This document shows, piece after piece, positions 9,363 through 36,207 of a stretch of DNA of 36,697 nt. The stretch's first letter is position 1; each line of letters begins with the position of its first letter. The translations under genes and the position numbers were made by a program. This DNA comes from a bacterium (lineage in GTDB: Bacteria; Patescibacteriota; Patescibacteriia; 2-12-FULL-60-25), in contig JAJZQU010000006.1 in assembly GCA_021806685.1 (NCBI GenBank), forward strand, positions 1-36,697. Reading direction: 5' to 3'. The notes below the pieces were generated by a model. That model was not told the origin of the DNA, did no database searches, and saw nothing but the letters and a program-made list of their open reading frames with translations.

Positions 9363-9749
9363 ATGCTCAACAAATCATCACTCATCAAGACCATTTACTT
9401 TTATTTGGTTTCCTTGATAGCTTTGCTCATGGTTGTCTTTTCAACGGCTGACCTGATTAACCTCGGCCTTAAGACCTGGGTCTTCCCCAAGACTAACCAA
9501 AATTATTATGGCATGCCCTGCCCTTCACAAGTCTATCCAATGCCAGTTGAAAAAGGAGTGACCCAAGCAACGGCCACTGTTGATTATGTTAAGCAGTGCG
9601 AGGTAGACCGCAAGAACCAGGAAGAAATGGCCATCATCCAAAACCAACGCGATGCCATCCGCGACATCTCAATGATCGTAGTCGGCATTCCCCTGTTCTT
9701 ATACCACTGGATAACCATCCGGAAAGACAAAGAAACCGAAAAGGCTTAA
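9363..9749 (+). CDS. Uncharacterised two-span membrane protein
   Basis: A 128-aa protein I do not recognise. It has a hydrophobic segment at about residues 8-32 (IYFYLVSLIALLMVVFSTAD) and a second at about 99-117 (DISMIVVGIPLFLYHWI), with a loop containing a CPSQVYP motif and a helical, charged DRKNQEEMAII stretch between them. The layout suggests an inner-membrane protein with the loop on the outside. It lies after a strong terminator and before one (9769-9799), so it is a single-gene unit placed between rplK and rplA. Confidence 0.75.
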   Translation: MLNKSSLIKTIYFYLVSLIALLMVVFSTADLINLGLKTWVFPKTNQNYYGMPCPSQVYPMPVEKGVTQATATVDYVKQCEVDRKNQEEMAIIQNQRDAIRDISMIVVGIPLFLYHWITIRKDKETEKA

Positions 9750-9768
9750 GGCTATTTTGTAGAAAAAG

Positions 9769-9799
9769 ACAGCTTACGCTTGACAGGTAAGCTGTTTTT
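9769..9799 (+). terminator. Intrinsic terminator with TTGACA in the loop
   Basis: ACAGCTTAC (9769-9777) and GTAAGCTGT (9787-9795) form a perfect 9-bp stem followed by five T. The nine-base loop GCTTGACAG contains the -35 hexamer of the next gene's promoter. Confidence 0.85.
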
Positions 9800-9808
9800 G
9801 TGTATCCT
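9780..9808 (+). promoter_or_regulatory. Promoter embedded in the preceding terminator
   Basis: TTGACA (9780-9785) lies in the terminator loop, the 3' arm and T-run make up the 17-base spacer, and TATCCT (9803-9808) is the -10. Start predicted near 9815, followed by an AAGGAGG site for the 163-aa gene. Confidence 0.6.
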
Positions 9809-9837
9809 CCATCACCGTCCCTTTCCAAGGAGGCACC

Positions 9838-10329
9838 ATGCACACGCTCGTGGTTATCAAGCCCAGCATCCTCGTCTTCACACACGATGACGACTACTTC
9901 CGCTGGCTGCAGGACCAAAGCCAAAACCAAGAAAGTCGGCAGGCCAAGCTGATGCTGCAGGCCAACACGCCGGCGGCCGGCCTGCTCATGCTCCACACTG
10001 ATCCGCACATACTGATTGTGGTCGTTGACCAGTGCGAAGACTTGGAGCGCCCGGACTACACCAAGCTCAGCCTGATCCGCTCCATCCACTCCGTGACCCG
10101 CAGGCGAAGGCCTGTTATCACGGTCGGGCCCTTTGAGCCGCACTCCTTCATGCTTGGTGGCGCCACTCGCGAATCGACCAGGAGACTTCTGCCTACCGTC
10201 TTGGCAGAGCTCTACTCCTTCCAATACGCCGTCTGGTCGGCCAGCCTCAATTCCTCTTCATTGGTCGTCCAAAAGACGCCGAAAATGCCAAGAAGAGGCA
10301 GGCGACGCAAGGCCGCCCTGATCTGCTAA
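9838..10329 (+). CDS. Uncharacterised protein, possibly receiver-like
   Basis: A 163-aa soluble protein I cannot name. AAGGAGG lies five to six bases before the ATG, unusually strong compared with nearby housekeeping genes. The pattern (beta strand plus acidic loop ILVFTHDDDYFRWL at 11-24, HILIVVVDQ with D64, then RRPVITVGP and an MLGGATRES segment) follows the order of a response-regulator receiver domain, with D64 where the phosphorylated Asp would be. No Lys of the usual type is clear, and no kinase is nearby. The C-terminus is basic (PRRGRRRK). The gene is flanked by terminators and interrupts the rplK-rplA neighbourhood. The receiver idea is inference. Confidence 0.65.
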   Translation: MHTLVVIKPSILVFTHDDDYFRWLQDQSQNQESRQAKLMLQANTPAAGLLMLHTDPHILIVVVDQCEDLERPDYTKLSLIRSIHSVTRRRRPVITVGPFEPHSFMLGGATRESTRRLLPTVLAELYSFQYAVWSASLNSSSLVVQKTPKMPRRGRRRKAALIC

Positions 10330-22811: not shown

Positions 22812-22935
22812 TTGAAAACGGAATATCATCCACATAATTGTTGTCATCCTCGCGAATGCGGGGATCCATCCGATTTTTATTTCTGGATTCCCTTTTTCGA
22901 AGGAGTGACAAATATGAAAAATACGCCGTTTTCAA
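22812..22935. repeat. Nested inverted repeats, MITE-like
   Basis: The outer 10-bp perfect arms TTGAAAACGG (22812-22821) and CCGTTTTCAA (22926-22935) enclose a second imperfect inverted repeat from TTGTCATCC (22841) to GGAGTGACAA (22902-22911) with GGATCCA/TGGATTCC inside it, similar to dRS3-type repeats. It lies in the leader of the 269-aa gene. Confidence 0.55.
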
Positions 22936-22964: not shown

Positions 22965-22993
22965 AATATAGCACAAAAAAGGGGTTCTGTCAA
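22965..22993 (-). promoter_or_regulatory. Strong promoter for the 269-aa gene
   Basis: TTGACA (22993-22988), 17-base spacer with a T6 tract, and TATATT (22970-22965) preceded by TG, i.e. an extended -10. The best consensus promoter in the window; start near 22958. GGGT and ACCC flank the -35, so the segment may double as the weak terminator of eno, whose 3' region (22994-23045) shows no other hairpin. Confidence 0.75.
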
Positions 22994-30919: not shown

Positions 30920-30955
30920 AAAAAAAGAGCCCGGCTAGAAAGACGCTGGCTGGGC
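30920..30955 (-). terminator. Terminator of the 154-aa gene
   Basis: GCCCAGC (30955-30949) and GCCGGGC (30935-30929) with one mismatch, followed by TCTTTTTTT on the minus strand. It overlaps the stop codon of the gene. Confidence 0.7.
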
Positions 30956-31399
30956 ATTGGGCGAGAAGATAAAGGGTGGATCCATGGTAATCAGGAGATG
31001 CCTATCTCTCATGAACCACATCAGTTGAAGATGCAAGATAGTTGCCTTTTCCCCTTTTCTGAAAAAATCAACGTGAACCATCACTCCCGCATTTTGACCA
31101 AGCCCCTCTACAACACATTGAACCCGGGAGGCTCTCCCGATGGCTAATCGCAGACCAGCCTCTTTCGTTGATCCGTGCTTGATATCTAAACCGTCGCAGT
31201 ACTTGCTCAGCATCGCGATCTGGCTAGCTGAGAGAAAGGGCTCCGATCTCAACATCACTCGGTAAACAAGACAATACCGCTGAAGTAGGCTGAGGCCATC
31301 CATGGCTGAGATGAAAACCTGTAGCCATTTTGGGTCGGCGGCAACACATTCAGTAAGATCCTTGTCGACGAACACGTTAAACTTGATCTCTGGCTTCAT
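30935..31399 (-). CDS. Uncharacterised 154-aa protein
   Basis: A soluble 154-aa protein I do not recognise. Its opening (KFNVFVDKDLTECVAADPKW) and the later GVMVHVDFFRKGEKATILHL stretch suggest an alpha/beta domain; the middle is helical (SASQIAMLSKYCDGLDIKHG). AAGGAG lies eight bases before the ATG. It forms a single-gene unit with a terminator-linked promoter in front and its own terminator behind, placed between tsf and infB. Confidence 0.65.
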   Translation of the reverse strand: MKPEIKFNVFVDKDLTECVAADPKWLQVFISAMDGLSLLQRYCLVYRVMLRSEPFLSASQIAMLSKYCDGLDIKHGSTKEAGLRLAIGRASRVQCVVEGLGQNAGVMVHVDFFRKGEKATILHLQLMWFMRDRHLLITMDPPFIFSPNAQPASF

Positions 31400-31471: not shown

Positions 31472-31500
31472 ACCCTAACAAAAAACAACCGCCTTGTCAA
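31472..31500 (-). promoter_or_regulatory. Promoter linked to the tsf terminator
   Basis: TTGACA (31500-31495) lies in the loop of the tsf terminator; the 3' arm and T-run fill the 17-base spacer; TAGGGT (31477-31472) is a poor -10. The spacer has the same T-tract as the other terminator-embedded promoters. Confidence 0.4.
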
Positions 31501-31513
31501 TGCTCGGCGGTTG
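31481..31513 (-). terminator. Intrinsic terminator of rpsB-tsf
   Basis: CAACCGCC (31513-31506) pairs with GGCGGTTG (31493-31486), 12-base loop containing TTGACA, then TTTTTTG. It can also work on the plus strand. Confidence 0.85.
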
Positions 31514-31532
31514 TTGTTTTTGAATAACCGGA

Positions 31533-32141
31533 TTAAGAGATCGTCCCCTTCTTACCAAGTTCCCAGCGCACAAAACGGGCAATGACTATTTTCTCACCAA
31601 TCTTGGCGATCTTTTCGTTGATTAACTGCTCAACAGTCTTTTCCTCATCCTTGAAGAAAGCCTGCTTGGTCAAGCAAACCTCATTGGTCCACTTGTCGAG
31701 CTTGCCTTGGACGATTTTGGCTTTCATTTCTTCCGGCTTATTGTCGCCGGAAACTTCTTCCAAAAACATTTGGCGTTGGCGTTCGAGGTCAGCCGAAGGA
31801 ATTGTTTCCGGTGAAAGGAAATCCGGGTTCATGGCAGCCACTTGCATGGCCAAGTCATTGGCAAAAGCCACGAAGTCTTCATTGCGCGCCACAAAATCAG
31901 ACTCGCATTGCAACTCGAGCATGGCTCCCATTTTTTTATTGTGGTGCAAGTAGGTGGCAATCAAGCCTTCGGCCGTTGTGCGTTCAGCTGTTTTTTGGGC
32001 GGCCTTGATTTCACCCATCTTACGCAGCTCTTCCAAGGCCTTTTCCATATCACCGTTGGCCAAGTCCAAAGCTTTTTTGCAGGCCATCATGCCTGCGCCT
32101 GTCTTTTCGCGTAATTCCGCGACTAATTTCATGTCTGTCAT
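31533..32141 (-). CDS. tsf: Elongation factor Ts
   Basis: A 202-aa protein from the ATG at 32141. The N-terminal UBA-like domain has LVAELREKTGAGMMACKKAL, and LQCESDFVARNEDF is the family signature in the core. EF-Ts exchanges GDP for GTP on EF-Tu. It is a short form like that of Thermus, lacking the longer dimerisation region of E. coli. An ATG at 32132 is an alternative start. It lies 37 bases after rpsB, the conserved rpsB-tsf order. Confidence 0.96.
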   Translation of the reverse strand: MTDMKLVAELREKTGAGMMACKKALDLANGDMEKALEELRKMGEIKAAQKTAERTTAEGLIATYLHHNKKMGAMLELQCESDFVARNEDFVAFANDLAMQVAAMNPDFLSPETIPSADLERQRQMFLEEVSGDNKPEEMKAKIVQGKLDKWTNEVCLTKQAFFKDEEKTVEQLINEKIAKIGEKIVIARFVRWELGKKGTIS

Positions 32142-32178
32142 AAAGTTCAAAATTATTATTTGTCCTCCCGACCGCTTG

Positions 32179-32946
32179 TTATTTCTTCTCCTGCGGTTTG
32201 CGCATGTCACGCGGGCCGCCTTGGAGCAAGGTGCCGGCTAAGCGAGAACGGTTAGCTTCCCATTCATCTTTGCCTTGCTTACAGGCCTGGCCAACCAAGC
32301 CGACGATTAAGGTAATGGCCTTAACCGCATCATCATTGGCCGGAATCGGGTAATCGATATCTTTAGGATTGACGTTCGAATCGCAGATGGCAATGACTTT
32401 GATGCCGCGGCGTGTGGCTTCAGCCAAAGCAGTTTTATCTTTATGGATGTCTTGGATAAAGATGGCGTCAGGGATGCGTGTCATGTCCTGGATACCGCCT
32501 ACCTTGTCTTCCAACATCTTAATCTGTTCGCTGAATTTTAGTTGCTCAAGTTTAGTGTATTTGCCCAACTCACCCTTCTCATGCCTGCGCTTCAAATCCT
32601 TAAAGCGTTTTAAAAGTTGTGCGATGACCGAAAAGTTGGTCATGGTGCCGCCCAGCCAGCGCTTGGTGATGTAAGGCATTCCGGCATCCTTGGCAGCAGC
32701 TTCGACAATTGAGGCGGCCTGCTTTTTTGTTCCAACGAACAAAATCTGTCCGCCGCGCGCGGTTGTTTGCTTGCAGAAAGCCAAAGCCTCTTCCAAAGCT
32801 TTTAGGGTGGTCTCTACATTAATGATATGGATGCCCTGCCGTGAACCGAACAGGTACTTCTCCATTTTGGGATGCCATTTGGAAGTCCGGTGCCCAAAGT
32901 GCACGCCGGCTTCCAGCATCTCCACGAGTGTGGGTACTTTAACCAT
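32179..32946 (-). CDS. rpsB: 30S ribosomal protein S2 (uS2)
   Basis: A 255-aa protein starting MVKVPTLVEMLEAGVHFGHRT, the family opening, which fixes the start at 32946. Further signatures are WHPKMEKYLFGSRQGIHIIN, RWLGGTMTNF and a VNPKDIDYPIPANDDA segment. uS2 binds late to the 30S head-platform junction. The upstream region is a structured leader of about 170 bases. Confidence 0.98.
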   Translation of the reverse strand: MVKVPTLVEMLEAGVHFGHRTSKWHPKMEKYLFGSRQGIHIINVETTLKALEEALAFCKQTTARGGQILFVGTKKQAASIVEAAAKDAGMPYITKRWLGGTMTNFSVIAQLLKRFKDLKRRHEKGELGKYTKLEQLKFSEQIKMLEDKVGGIQDMTRIPDAIFIQDIHKDKTALAEATRRGIKVIAICDSNVNPKDIDYPIPANDDAVKAITLIVGLVGQACKQGKDEWEANRSRLAGTLLQGGPRDMRKPQEKK

Positions 32947-33215: not shown

Positions 33216-34118
33216 CTACTGCCAGCAGTGGAGCTGCTGGAAGGTCATGGTGGCATTCAGCTTGGTCTCGCAGTTACCATGCATGGTGCCGCCCGAGTAG
33301 CTGCCTACAAAGGTTTCGCCGACGCAGACGATATATTCGTCAGTGTCCGGACAGCCGGTGTTTGAGCAGCGGTATGTCCAGCCAACGAAGGTGTTATTGC
33401 CTGGGGCGGTAAACCCAGGTTCAAAGGTGATGTCCAAGCCGACCGTGGCAGCCACGGGCGTGACCATAAGCACCTTCTCTCCAGGATTGGCTAGCTTCCA
33501 AACTGCGTAACCTTGCGGCGTACCAGCGTCAGAAACAGAAAACGAGTACTCGCCGAAAATTCCCAGCACTTTGCCTACCGGCGGGTCGTCGCTGACAGTT
33601 ACGACAACAGTTGCCCAGCCCGGCTTGCCATACTTCTGGCAATCGGTCAGCACAACAGCGTCTTCCTGGGCAACGTCCTGCAGTTCGACGTCCGGTTCGG
33701 CGTCAGGTCCAGAGTCAATCTCGACGTCAGGCCCTGCTTCGGGTGAAGCTTCGGGCTCGACCTCGGGTGACGAAGCTTCGGCTTCAACCTCAGCCTCGGG
33801 TGAAGCTTCGGGCTGGACTTCTGGCTCTGCCTCTGGAGAGGCTTCCTTGTCCAAACCAGTGTCCTTGGGGCCGGTCTCAGCCTCGGGCTTGGCATCAACC
33901 GAAGCTTCTGCCTCGGGCTTGACGTCCGGCTTACCTGCCTCAACATCGTGCTTGACGTCAGGTTTGGTTTCTTGCTGGACATCAGGAAGCTTGGAATCCT
34001 GAGCTCCTGAATCTACGTCGCCTGGGGGGAAGGGGGTGAACTCATCACCACCGCAACCCAGGATGGATGACGCCAAAAGCGCCACCATGGAAAGAACTAC
34101 ACACGTAAATCTGTTCAT
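33216..34118 (-). CDS. Predicted lipoprotein with Pro/Glu/Asp-rich stalk, paralogue 1
   Basis: A 300-aa protein. The signal peptide ends in the lipobox SSILGC with Cys 22, so it should be lipid-anchored outside. Residues about 30-150 are a repetitive acidic stalk of PEASPEAE/KPDV units. A Cys-containing C-terminal domain follows (DCQKYGKPGWATVVVTVSDD, RCSNTGCPDTDEYIVC, NCETK, LHCWQ). GAGGAG lies seven bases before the ATG. The next gene upstream is a clear paralogue sharing the signal peptide and C-terminal domain. Function unknown; a surface-exposed stalked domain is inferred. Confidence 0.8.
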   Translation of the reverse strand: MNRFTCVVLSMVALLASSILGCGGDEFTPFPPGDVDSGAQDSKLPDVQQETKPDVKHDVEAGKPDVKPEAEASVDAKPEAETGPKDTGLDKEASPEAEPEVQPEASPEAEVEAEASSPEVEPEASPEAGPDVEIDSGPDAEPDVELQDVAQEDAVVLTDCQKYGKPGWATVVVTVSDDPPVGKVLGIFGEYSFSVSDAGTPQGYAVWKLANPGEKVLMVTPVAATVGLDITFEPGFTAPGNNTFVGWTYRCSNTGCPDTDEYIVCVGETFVGSYSGGTMHGNCETKLNATMTFQQLHCWQ

Positions 34119-34165
34119 CACGTATCTCCTCTTTGCGATGGTTGATCGGAATCAGTGTGCTCATT

Positions 34166-34194
34166 TATATACACGAAAAAAGCCTAGTTGTCAA
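34166..34194 (-). promoter_or_regulatory. Promoter of lipoprotein gene 1
   Basis: TTGACA (34194-34189), 17-base spacer containing T6, TATATA (34171-34166). AAAAGCCT of the upstream terminator can also pair with AGGCTTTT in this spacer, placing the -35 in a second terminator-like loop. Confidence 0.65.
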
Positions 34195-34205
34195 GAATAA
34201 TGGGT

Positions 34206-34246
34206 AAAAAAAAGAGGCTTTTGGCGCTAGGTTGCGCCAAAAGCCT
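34206..34246 (-). terminator. Terminator of lipoprotein gene 2
   Basis: A perfect 13-bp stem AGGCTTTTGGCGC/GCGCCAAAAGCCT (34246-34234, 34227-34215), six-base loop, then eight T. Confidence 0.95.
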
Positions 34247-34256
34247 GTGAGGCTGA

Positions 34257-34994
34257 CTACTTTACCACGCAATGGATCTGCTGCTTGTAATGCACATCCA
34301 GCTGGTATTCGCAGTCTTTCGCGAAGTTGCCGCCCGAGTACTTGCCCACGAAGTTCTTGCCCGCGCAGACCAGGTAATCGTCCGTGTCAGGACAGCCTGA
34401 CTGGTCGCAACGGATGGCCCAGGTGGACAAGTCTTTGTTGCCAGCAGTAGCGAACCCTGGTTCGAACACGATGTTCAGGCCGATGACGTCTGCCACGGGC
34501 GTGGCTACGATCAGCTTCTCGCCTTGGTCGCCAAACTTCCACGGAGCATAATCTTGCGGCGTGCCAGAGTCCAAGACGGCGAAGAAGTACTTGCCGTACA
34601 TGGCCAGGACCTGGCCCGGAGGTGGATCGTCGCTGACCCTGATGACCACGGTCACGAAACCAATCTCGCCCCATTGCTGGCAATCGCCCAATGGGGCGAT
34701 CTCTTCCACCACGTCTGGGAGCTCGACGTCGGGCGAAGCCTCGGGCAACGAGGCTTCGGCTTCTGCCTCGGTCCCTGCTTCAGGCGCAGCTTCGGGCTGG
34801 ACTTCCTGGTCCAACCCAGTGTCCTTTGCATCGGCGTCGGGCTTGTTGGCGTCATGCTGCTTATCGGGCTTGGCGTCCTCGACAGAGCCATCTGCCTCAA
34901 AAGGAGCGGCAGTGAACTCGCCACCACCGCAACCCAGGATGGATGACGCCAAAAGCGCCACCATGGAAAGTACTACGCAGACAAATTTGTTCAT
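34257..34994 (-). CDS. Predicted lipoprotein with acidic stalk, paralogue 2
   Basis: A 245-aa protein. Its signal peptide VVLSMVALLASSILGC is identical over the core to paralogue 1, with the lipid-carrying Cys at 22. The acidic stalk (about residues 30-95) is shorter, which explains the length difference. The C-terminal domain matches paralogue 1 in order (DCQQWGEIGFVTVVIRVSDD, RCDQSGCPDTDDYLVC, DCEYQ, HCVVK). GAGGAG precedes the ATG by seven bases, and the spacing and sequence of the leader are shared with paralogue 1, pointing to duplication of gene plus signals. Confidence 0.8.
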   Translation of the reverse strand: MNKFVCVVLSMVALLASSILGCGGGEFTAAPFEADGSVEDAKPDKQHDANKPDADAKDTGLDQEVQPEAAPEAGTEAEAEASLPEASPDVELPDVVEEIAPLGDCQQWGEIGFVTVVIRVSDDPPPGQVLAMYGKYFFAVLDSGTPQDYAPWKFGDQGEKLIVATPVADVIGLNIVFEPGFATAGNKDLSTWAIRCDQSGCPDTDDYLVCAGKNFVGKYSGGNFAKDCEYQLDVHYKQQIHCVVK

Positions 34995-35042
34995 CACGCA
35001 TCTCCTCTTGTGCGATGGTCACTAGAAACGGTGTACTTCTCT

Positions 35043-35074
35043 CTTATAACAAAAAGGCCTTTTTGTCAAGGCCT
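35043..35074 (-). terminator. prfA terminator fused to lipoprotein gene 2 promoter
   Basis: AGGCCTT (35074-35068) pairs with AAGGCCT (35061-35055), then TTTTG. TTGACA (35069-35064) starts in the first arm and runs into the loop; TATAAG (35048-35043) follows after 15 bases, a short spacer, or TAAGAG after 17. Confidence 0.7.
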
Positions 35075-35094: not shown

Positions 35095-36159
35095 TTATTC
35101 TTCTTCGTTCCCCATCTTGCCACTTTTAACAGCTGCGATTATGACATCTAAGCCGCCGTCTAAAATGTTTTGGATATTATGCCAAGATTTTTTGATGCGA
35201 TGATCAGTGATTCTATCTTGAGGATAGTTATAGGTACGAATCTTTTCCGAACGATCACCCGAACCGATTTGCGACCTGCGTTCTGCATCCAGTTCTTGCC
35301 TGCGCTTTTGCTCTTGGTGCTCCCAAATCCTGGCACGCAAGATCTGCATGGCGCGTTCGCGGTTCTGCTGTTGCGACCTTTCGTCCTGGCAGTTAACGAC
35401 GGTGTTGGTCGGTATGTGAGTGATCCTGACTGCGGAGTAAGTTGTGTTTACGGATTGCCCGCCCTTGCCGCCGGCACAGAAAGTATCAATGCGTAAATCT
35501 TTTGATTCAATTTTTAATTCTTCTTCTTCCAGTTCCGGCAAGACAGCTACCGTAACGGTTGAGGTGTGGATTCTCCCCTGCTTTTCAGTTTCCGGCACAC
35601 GTTGCACGCGGTGGACACCCATCTCAGTCTTAAGCATGCCATAAGCATTGGTGCCTTGCACCGAAAAAATAACTTCTTTATAACCGCCTTGCTCTGCCAA
35701 AGATTGGCTGGCCAAAGAAGTCTTCCAGCCTTGGCGTTCGGCAAAACGCACAAGCATCCTAAAAATATCAGCTGCAAAAATAGCCGCCTCTTCCCCGCCA
35801 ACTCCGGCGCGAATTTCGATGATAGCATTGGCATGGTCGTATGGCCCGGGAGGGACAAGCGCCAGTTCAAAAGCTTCTTTAGCCGCCTCATAATCTGACT
35901 TGAGGTGAGGCAGCTCAGCTTCGGCCAATGACCTCATCTCTTCATCATCTGAGCCTGCCGTTTGTTCCGCCTCTTCCAGAGCAACTTTCAAAGCTGCAAA
36001 TTTTTCACCGCATTCAACTAAAATTTTTGCTTCTGAATAAGCACGCGAAACATCCCTGACTTTTTCAGGGCTCGAGAGAAAGGCCGGGTCAGCCATCTCA
36101 TCCTCCAGCTTGACCAACTTTTCCCTGGCTTGTTTTAAACCTTCCATCAAATCAGACAT
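35095..36159 (-). CDS. prfA: Peptide chain release factor 1
   Basis: A 354-aa class I release factor. The catalytic GGQ is in [20 protein letters not shown] (about residues 222-241). The codon-recognition region has [20 protein letters not shown], where P-E-T fits the RF1 PxT motif (reads UAA/UAG) rather than the RF2 SPF type. The start at 36159 has GGGAGG nine bases upstream, contributed by the arm of the preceding terminator. It is followed by a terminator that doubles as a promoter. Confidence 0.97.
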
Positions 36160-36167
36160 AACAAAAG

Positions 36168-36207
36168 ACCTCCCCAGCATTATAGTCTGGGGAGGTGTTT
36201 TTATCTA
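36168..36207 (-). terminator. rpmE terminator overlapping the prfA promoter
   Basis: ACCTCCCCAG (36196-36187) and CTGGGGAGGT (36177-36168) make a 10-bp stem followed by CTTTTG. The loop contains TATAAT (36184-36179), and TAGATA (36207-36202), 17 bases upstream, may be its -35. Confidence 0.75.

Follow-up and report, generated by a model that had tools for sequence, protein, structure and literature searches.

Candidate fused terminator-promoter elements, with a −35 box in or at the terminator loop, recur in an Uhrbacteria-like genome

Can one short piece of intergenic DNA both end one gene and begin the next? The question is raised by positions 9768–9808 of the window, by which we mean the whole 36,697-base stretch that was analysed. 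Here the −35 hexamer TTGACA lies in the loop of a terminator hairpin, and the T-run behind the hairpin falls within the spacer to a −10 box. A sequence-only reading of the window had reported this overlap at four further places, had described it as repeated across the window and had tied it to a single class of downstream genes.

Genome and scoring of terminators

As contig C15, the window belongs to a genome of 920,260 bases (61 contigs, 84.8% complete) from an Uhrbacteria-like member of the Patescibacteria; several next-best prfA matches are named Candidatus Uhrbacteria. The whole genome was taken in, and its 288 intergenic terminators formed the base set for the promoter-in-loop counts, a promoter being counted when its matrix score exceeded 14 with the −35 box within the loop. 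An initial low-threshold promoter matrix ran off into AT-rich noise, and a new matrix took its place. The matrix takes in the T-tract, so that terminators score partly for free. Because T-runs imitate a promoter spacer in this way, a shuffled-loop control was chosen as the main null, in which each terminator keeps its stem and T-run, the loop letters are shuffled and the downstream sequence is exchanged among terminators. A second test, in which upstream sequences are swapped among promoters, is biased toward terminators with T-runs, and the shuffled-loop test therefore counts as the fair one.

Three overlapping sites in the window

At the first site the stem gacagcttac/gtaagctgtt encloses the loop GCTTGACAG and is followed by T5, a 17-nt spacer and the −10 box TATCCT. 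The RNA fold has an energy of −15.0 kcal/mol (z −4.8). The orphan gene behind it was found in only two of the 37 relatives searched, G004 and G005.

9768–9796, plus strand: intrinsic-terminator hairpin of the gene at 9363–9749, −35 box in loop (RNA fold; same in G004)
9780–9785, plus strand: −35 box TTGACA, in loop
9795–9799, plus strand: T5 run, predicted to serve as terminator U-tract and as part of the promoter spacer
9803–9808, plus strand: −10 box TATCCT, 17-nt spacer
9827–9833, plus strand: Shine-Dalgarno sequence AAGGAGG of the orphan gene
9838–10329, plus strand: orphan gene downstream, 163 aa, without a match in Pfam or NCBIfam

The second site, at 31472–31515 on the minus strand, follows tsf. 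Its stem aacaaccgcc/ggcggttgtt encloses the loop GAGCATTGACAA, the promoter reads TTGACA-17-TAGGGT, and the fold has an energy of −16.4 kcal/mol (z −4.7).

31533–32210, minus strand: upstream gene tsf (EF-Ts)
31484–31515, minus strand: tsf terminator hairpin, TTGACA in loop (RNA fold; compensatory changes in G002 and G004)
31495–31500, minus strand: −35 box TTGACA, in loop
31472–31477, minus strand: weak −10 box TAGGGT; G002 has TAGCCT and G004 lacks the box
30935–31399, minus strand: orphan gene downstream, 154 aa; G002 has a homologue behind tsf (25.6%, E 5e-7), G004 has none there

The third site, at 35041–35074 on the minus strand, follows prfA and has the form aggcctt-GACAAA-aaggcct, so that TTGACA overlaps the top of the stem. 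Its fold has an energy of −11.2 kcal/mol (z −2.9), and its promoter is the weakest of the three.

35095–36180, minus strand: upstream gene prfA (RF1)
35055–35074, minus strand: prfA terminator hairpin overlapping TTGACA (RNA fold; G002 and G006 have other stems around this box)
35064–35069, minus strand: −35 box TTGACA
35041–35048, minus strand: −10 region, TATAAG (spacer 15) or TAAGAG (spacer 17)
34257–34997, minus strand: downstream small lipoprotein-like orphan, paralogue of 33216–34121

The two paralogous lipoprotein-like orphans, which together span 33216–34997, are 48% identical and abound in repeated acidic PEASPEA/DAKP segments; several congeners likewise have a promoter and a lipoprotein-like gene behind prfA.

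The −10 boxes of the three confirmed sites are weak (TATCCT, TAGGGT, and TAAGAG). At the remaining two of the five places where an overlap had been read, the hairpin is not distinguishable from shuffled sequence. At 34166–34246 terminator and promoter stand in tandem: the terminator stops short of the TTGACA at 34189–34194, and the second hairpin that had been proposed there folds at the level of shuffles (z −0.8). At 22965–22993 a near-consensus promoter is present without a significant hairpin (z +1.0).

34215–34246, minus strand: strong terminator of the ordinary kind, with a separate promoter behind it (RNA fold)
34166–34194, minus strand: promoter TTGACA-17-TATATA, 3' of that terminator and outside its loop
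22965–22993, minus strand: near-consensus promoter TTGACA-17-TATATT, no significant hairpin

An intergenic repeat, GGATCCCCGCAT(T/G)CGCGAGGATGACA, occurs in two copies, at 22842 in the window and at C55:60633, and resembles a piece beside tsf in G001.

The spacers had also been described as holding T5–6 followed by G or GTG. This pattern is real, although it belongs to the promoter consensus of the whole genome (TTGACA, a T-tract spacer, ~(T)GTGC, TATATT) and is not peculiar to these sites. TTTT occurs in the last 11 spacer bases of 16 of 47 TTGACA-17-TAWNNT sites, as against 5.6% of random 11-mers. Since promoters of this lineage favor a T-tract spacer, the U-tract of a terminator can double as one.

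Frequency of the design in the genome

Across the 288 intergenic terminators, 12 carry a promoter above the cut-off with its −35 box in the loop, compared with 0.9 ± 0.9 under the main null (maximum 3 among 60). Exact TTGACA is present in nine terminator loops (null 1.2), whereas the 180 letter permutations of this hexamer give a mean of 0.7. The design thus repeats above chance. Shuffling the loops alone gives a null of 2.3 and exchanging the downstream sequences alone one of 5.6, and therefore the −35 and −10 halves both carry signal. A stricter test for TTGAC[AGT] together with a −10 box of 4/6 matches gave a smaller excess (5 versus 1.3). Swapping upstream sequences among promoters, the test with the bias described above, gave 17 stems versus 1.9.

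These counts bear on the view that the sites are terminators only, with T-runs that mimic a spacer and with both the loop TTGACA and the −10-like hexamer there by accident. Terminators with shuffled loops do occasionally still reach the matrix threshold, which speaks for this view; the excesses of the exact hexamer and of the two-part match speak against it, and we regard it as distinctly unlikely.

The hexamer TTGCAA is also frequent in terminator loops, but as part of a repeated palindrome. A dispersed and mostly intergenic palindrome, GTAGAGACGTTGCATTGCAACGTCTCTAC, occurs seven times or more in the 0.92 Mb (C3:6420, C14:9064, C14:35894, C38:6123, C45:12105, C46:6234, and C46:12319; loci L012, L023, L075, L046, L053, and L054).

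The starts of −35 boxes relative to the T-run are bimodally distributed, with 12 in the loop at −20 to −11, one in the stem at −10 to −1 and 18 behind the stem at 0 to +29. Promoters directly 3' of a T-run therefore outnumber those in a loop by 18 to 12.

At all 12 sites the upstream gene is co-oriented, with its stop codon 15–25 nt away at eight of them, and at nine a co-oriented called gene lies 19–84 nt downstream. The upstream genes are often conserved ones and include prfA, prfB, tsf, rlmH, and nrdR; another was judged by eye to be yraN-like. The downstream genes are mostly orphans. No Pfam family was found for 8 of the 9 identifiable downstream proteins, compared with 10 of 20 behind ordinary promoters, a borderline contrast that is suggestive only (one-sided Fisher P ~0.05). 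A tie to one class of genes is not supported in the form proposed, since the downstream proteins are unrelated and one of them has a HAD domain. Between the rlmH element and the 136-aa orphan behind it lies, in the stretch 5952–6050 of L019 (contig C10, minus strand), a 5-codon open reading frame, ATGAACATCTGGCAGTAG, with its own Shine-Dalgarno sequence; it is possibly a leader peptide, and a similar short frame is found at the corresponding rlmH position in G004.

Comparison with relatives

The sequence-only reading had called for related genomes to be compared with shuffled controls, and three genomes of the same genus do show an excess of TTGACA in terminator loops (G002, 3 versus 0.28; G004, 7 versus 0.32; G006, 3 versus 0.33). 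Other Patescibacteria gave 4 against a null of 0.84, and a set mainly of Acidobacteria and Nitrospirae loci gave 0 against 0.14. With the stricter hexamer test no excess was seen in the G002 and G006 samples, where the counts are too low to decide.

After tsf, the TTGACA of the loop is invariant in three species (this genome, which is G000, G004, and G002). Two pairs of the stem have changed on both sides, among A-U, G-C, and G-U, with every position still paired, although this covariation is not significant against column shuffles (111/500; three sequences only). Both G000 and G002 have a −10 box at this place (TAGGGT and TAGCCT) together with homologous orphan genes. In G004 the terminator and TTGACA are kept, and the −10 box and the orphan gene are missing. 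After prfA, TTGACA lies within unlike stems in four species: AGGCC/GGCCT in G000 and G004, AAAGCCC/GGGCTTT in G002, and ACGGCCGT/ACGGCCGT in G006. In G001 and G008, of the same genus, the promoter is kept without such a hairpin. The rlmH and prfB sites are common to this genome and its closest relative G004 only, among the genomes examined.

The boxes and stems compared after tsf and prfA thus suggest that both signals are maintained across relatives and yet are separable; among congeners the putative terminator and promoter halves come and go independently of each other. The loop of G004 after tsf, with TTGACA and no −10 box, is what would be expected if the sites were terminators alone, but the replication of the excess in relatives and a box that is kept as its stem changes speak against that view.

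The inverted repeat around the −35 box could instead be a DNA operator for a regulator. A few promoters do have such a repeat without a good T-run (C20:1669 and C2:1612, and loci of G016 and G013). At the sites described here, however, the stem sequence is unlike at nearly every one, T-runs follow on the 3' side, stem pairs change together and every upstream gene is co-oriented, all of which make an operator very improbable. The G016 locus after prfA (L156) has the inverted repeat ACGACG-aggaTTGACAaaa-CGTCGT around the −35 box, no T-run, and an ordinary terminator directly 3'.

Discussion

The best reading of these sites, to which we give a probability of about three in four, is an economical fusion of an intrinsic terminator with a σ70-type promoter on one strand. 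That one piece of ~40 bp holds both predicted signals, as was first read at 9768–9808, is supported by the computation and by the comparison of relatives, and about a dozen such pieces seem to serve at once as the end of one gene and the beginning of the following one. The co-location of the two signals, its excess over the nulls and its conservation are established at the level of sequence.

RNA polymerase leaving the upstream gene would transcribe a GC-containing hairpin and then a U-run, and the transcript would be released. Read as a promoter, the same DNA would present TTGACA at or within the loop of the hairpin, and the 3' arm of the stem together with the T-run would form the ~17-bp spacer to the −10 box. 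The downstream transcript is predicted to start ~6–8 bp past the −10 box, so that the hairpin would not be part of the new mRNA. We infer that both halves are active. Such a fusion would be easy in this lineage because ordinary promoters already favor a T-tract before the −10 box, and it could arise by two routes, either by the addition of the complement of the first spacer bases upstream of a −35 box or by the placing of TTGACA in a terminator loop. In this compact genome, where no Rho was detected, an end and a start would fit into ~40 bp between two genes of like orientation. No Rho protein above the TIGR00767 cut-off was found in the 19 genomes searched (this genome and 18 relatives), in agreement with a probable dependence on intrinsic terminators; two weak Rho-family matches in this genome are the ATP synthase alpha/beta subunits.

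The fusion might go further and couple the two genes. Polymerase released at the T-run would stay on the DNA, no more than ~15 bp from the following start, and reinitiate there, or terminating polymerases would occlude the promoter, so that downstream expression would be tied to upstream transcription. In vitro, post-terminational RNA polymerase remains on the DNA and reinitiates at nearby promoters (PMC6978380, PMC6978322), and the coordinates would place the termination point ~12–15 bp before the predicted start. Reinitiation is, however, estimated to act over up to ~1000 bp (PMC11347151), and overlap is therefore not required. Congeners also show promoter and hairpin separated from each other at prfA and tsf, and promoters directly 3' of a T-run are commoner than those in a loop. 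Coupling is thus rather unlikely.

The fused element, as the preferred reading, would mean that tiny genomes may save regulatory DNA by letting a terminator's U-tract serve also as the promoter spacer of the following gene. For Patescibacteria it supplies a concrete rule by which promoters and terminators can be annotated; it also offers natural templates for asking whether RNA polymerase recycling at terminators operates in cells, and suggests a route by which orphan genes obtain a promoter at their landing place. A fairly improbable extension is that, where Patescibacteria lack Rho and have T-tract promoters, new promoters come recurrently from the terminators of conserved genes. The appearance of TTGACA in the loop would then give a promoter to a lineage-specific gene behind a core gene, and released polymerase would be able to restart at the fused element, tying the orphan to core-gene expression.

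The literature searches returned no transcription mapping in Patescibacteria and no report of a recurrent −35-in-terminator-loop design, an absence that is no proof. Overlap of a terminator with a promoter is known singly, from frdD-ampC of Escherichia coli, where the frd terminator reportedly lies in the ampC leader, past the start, and acts as an attenuator. That case is alike in that one operon's terminator and the next gene's promoter occupy overlapping DNA, and differs in being a single case with the hairpin after the start, whereas here about a dozen hairpins enclose the −35 box and lie before the start. In Neisseria and Pasteurellaceae, uptake-signal sequences occur genome-wide inside terminator hairpins (PMC1852404). 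There too a second short DNA signal is repeatedly built into intrinsic terminators, but it is a DNA-uptake word, and it forms the hairpin (PMC1852404); at the present sites a promoter element occupies the loop. RNA polymerase recycling and reinitiation involve a terminator adjoining a promoter, as the fused element would supply, whereas the sections available of those studies concern separate terminators and promoters in vitro and describe no fused element (PMC6978380, PMC6978322, PMC11347151). Ordinary tandem regions have terminator and promoter in the same order and are also frequent in this genome, as the 18 promoters at 0 to +29 indicate; in these the two signals are adjacent, whereas at the fused sites they share bases.
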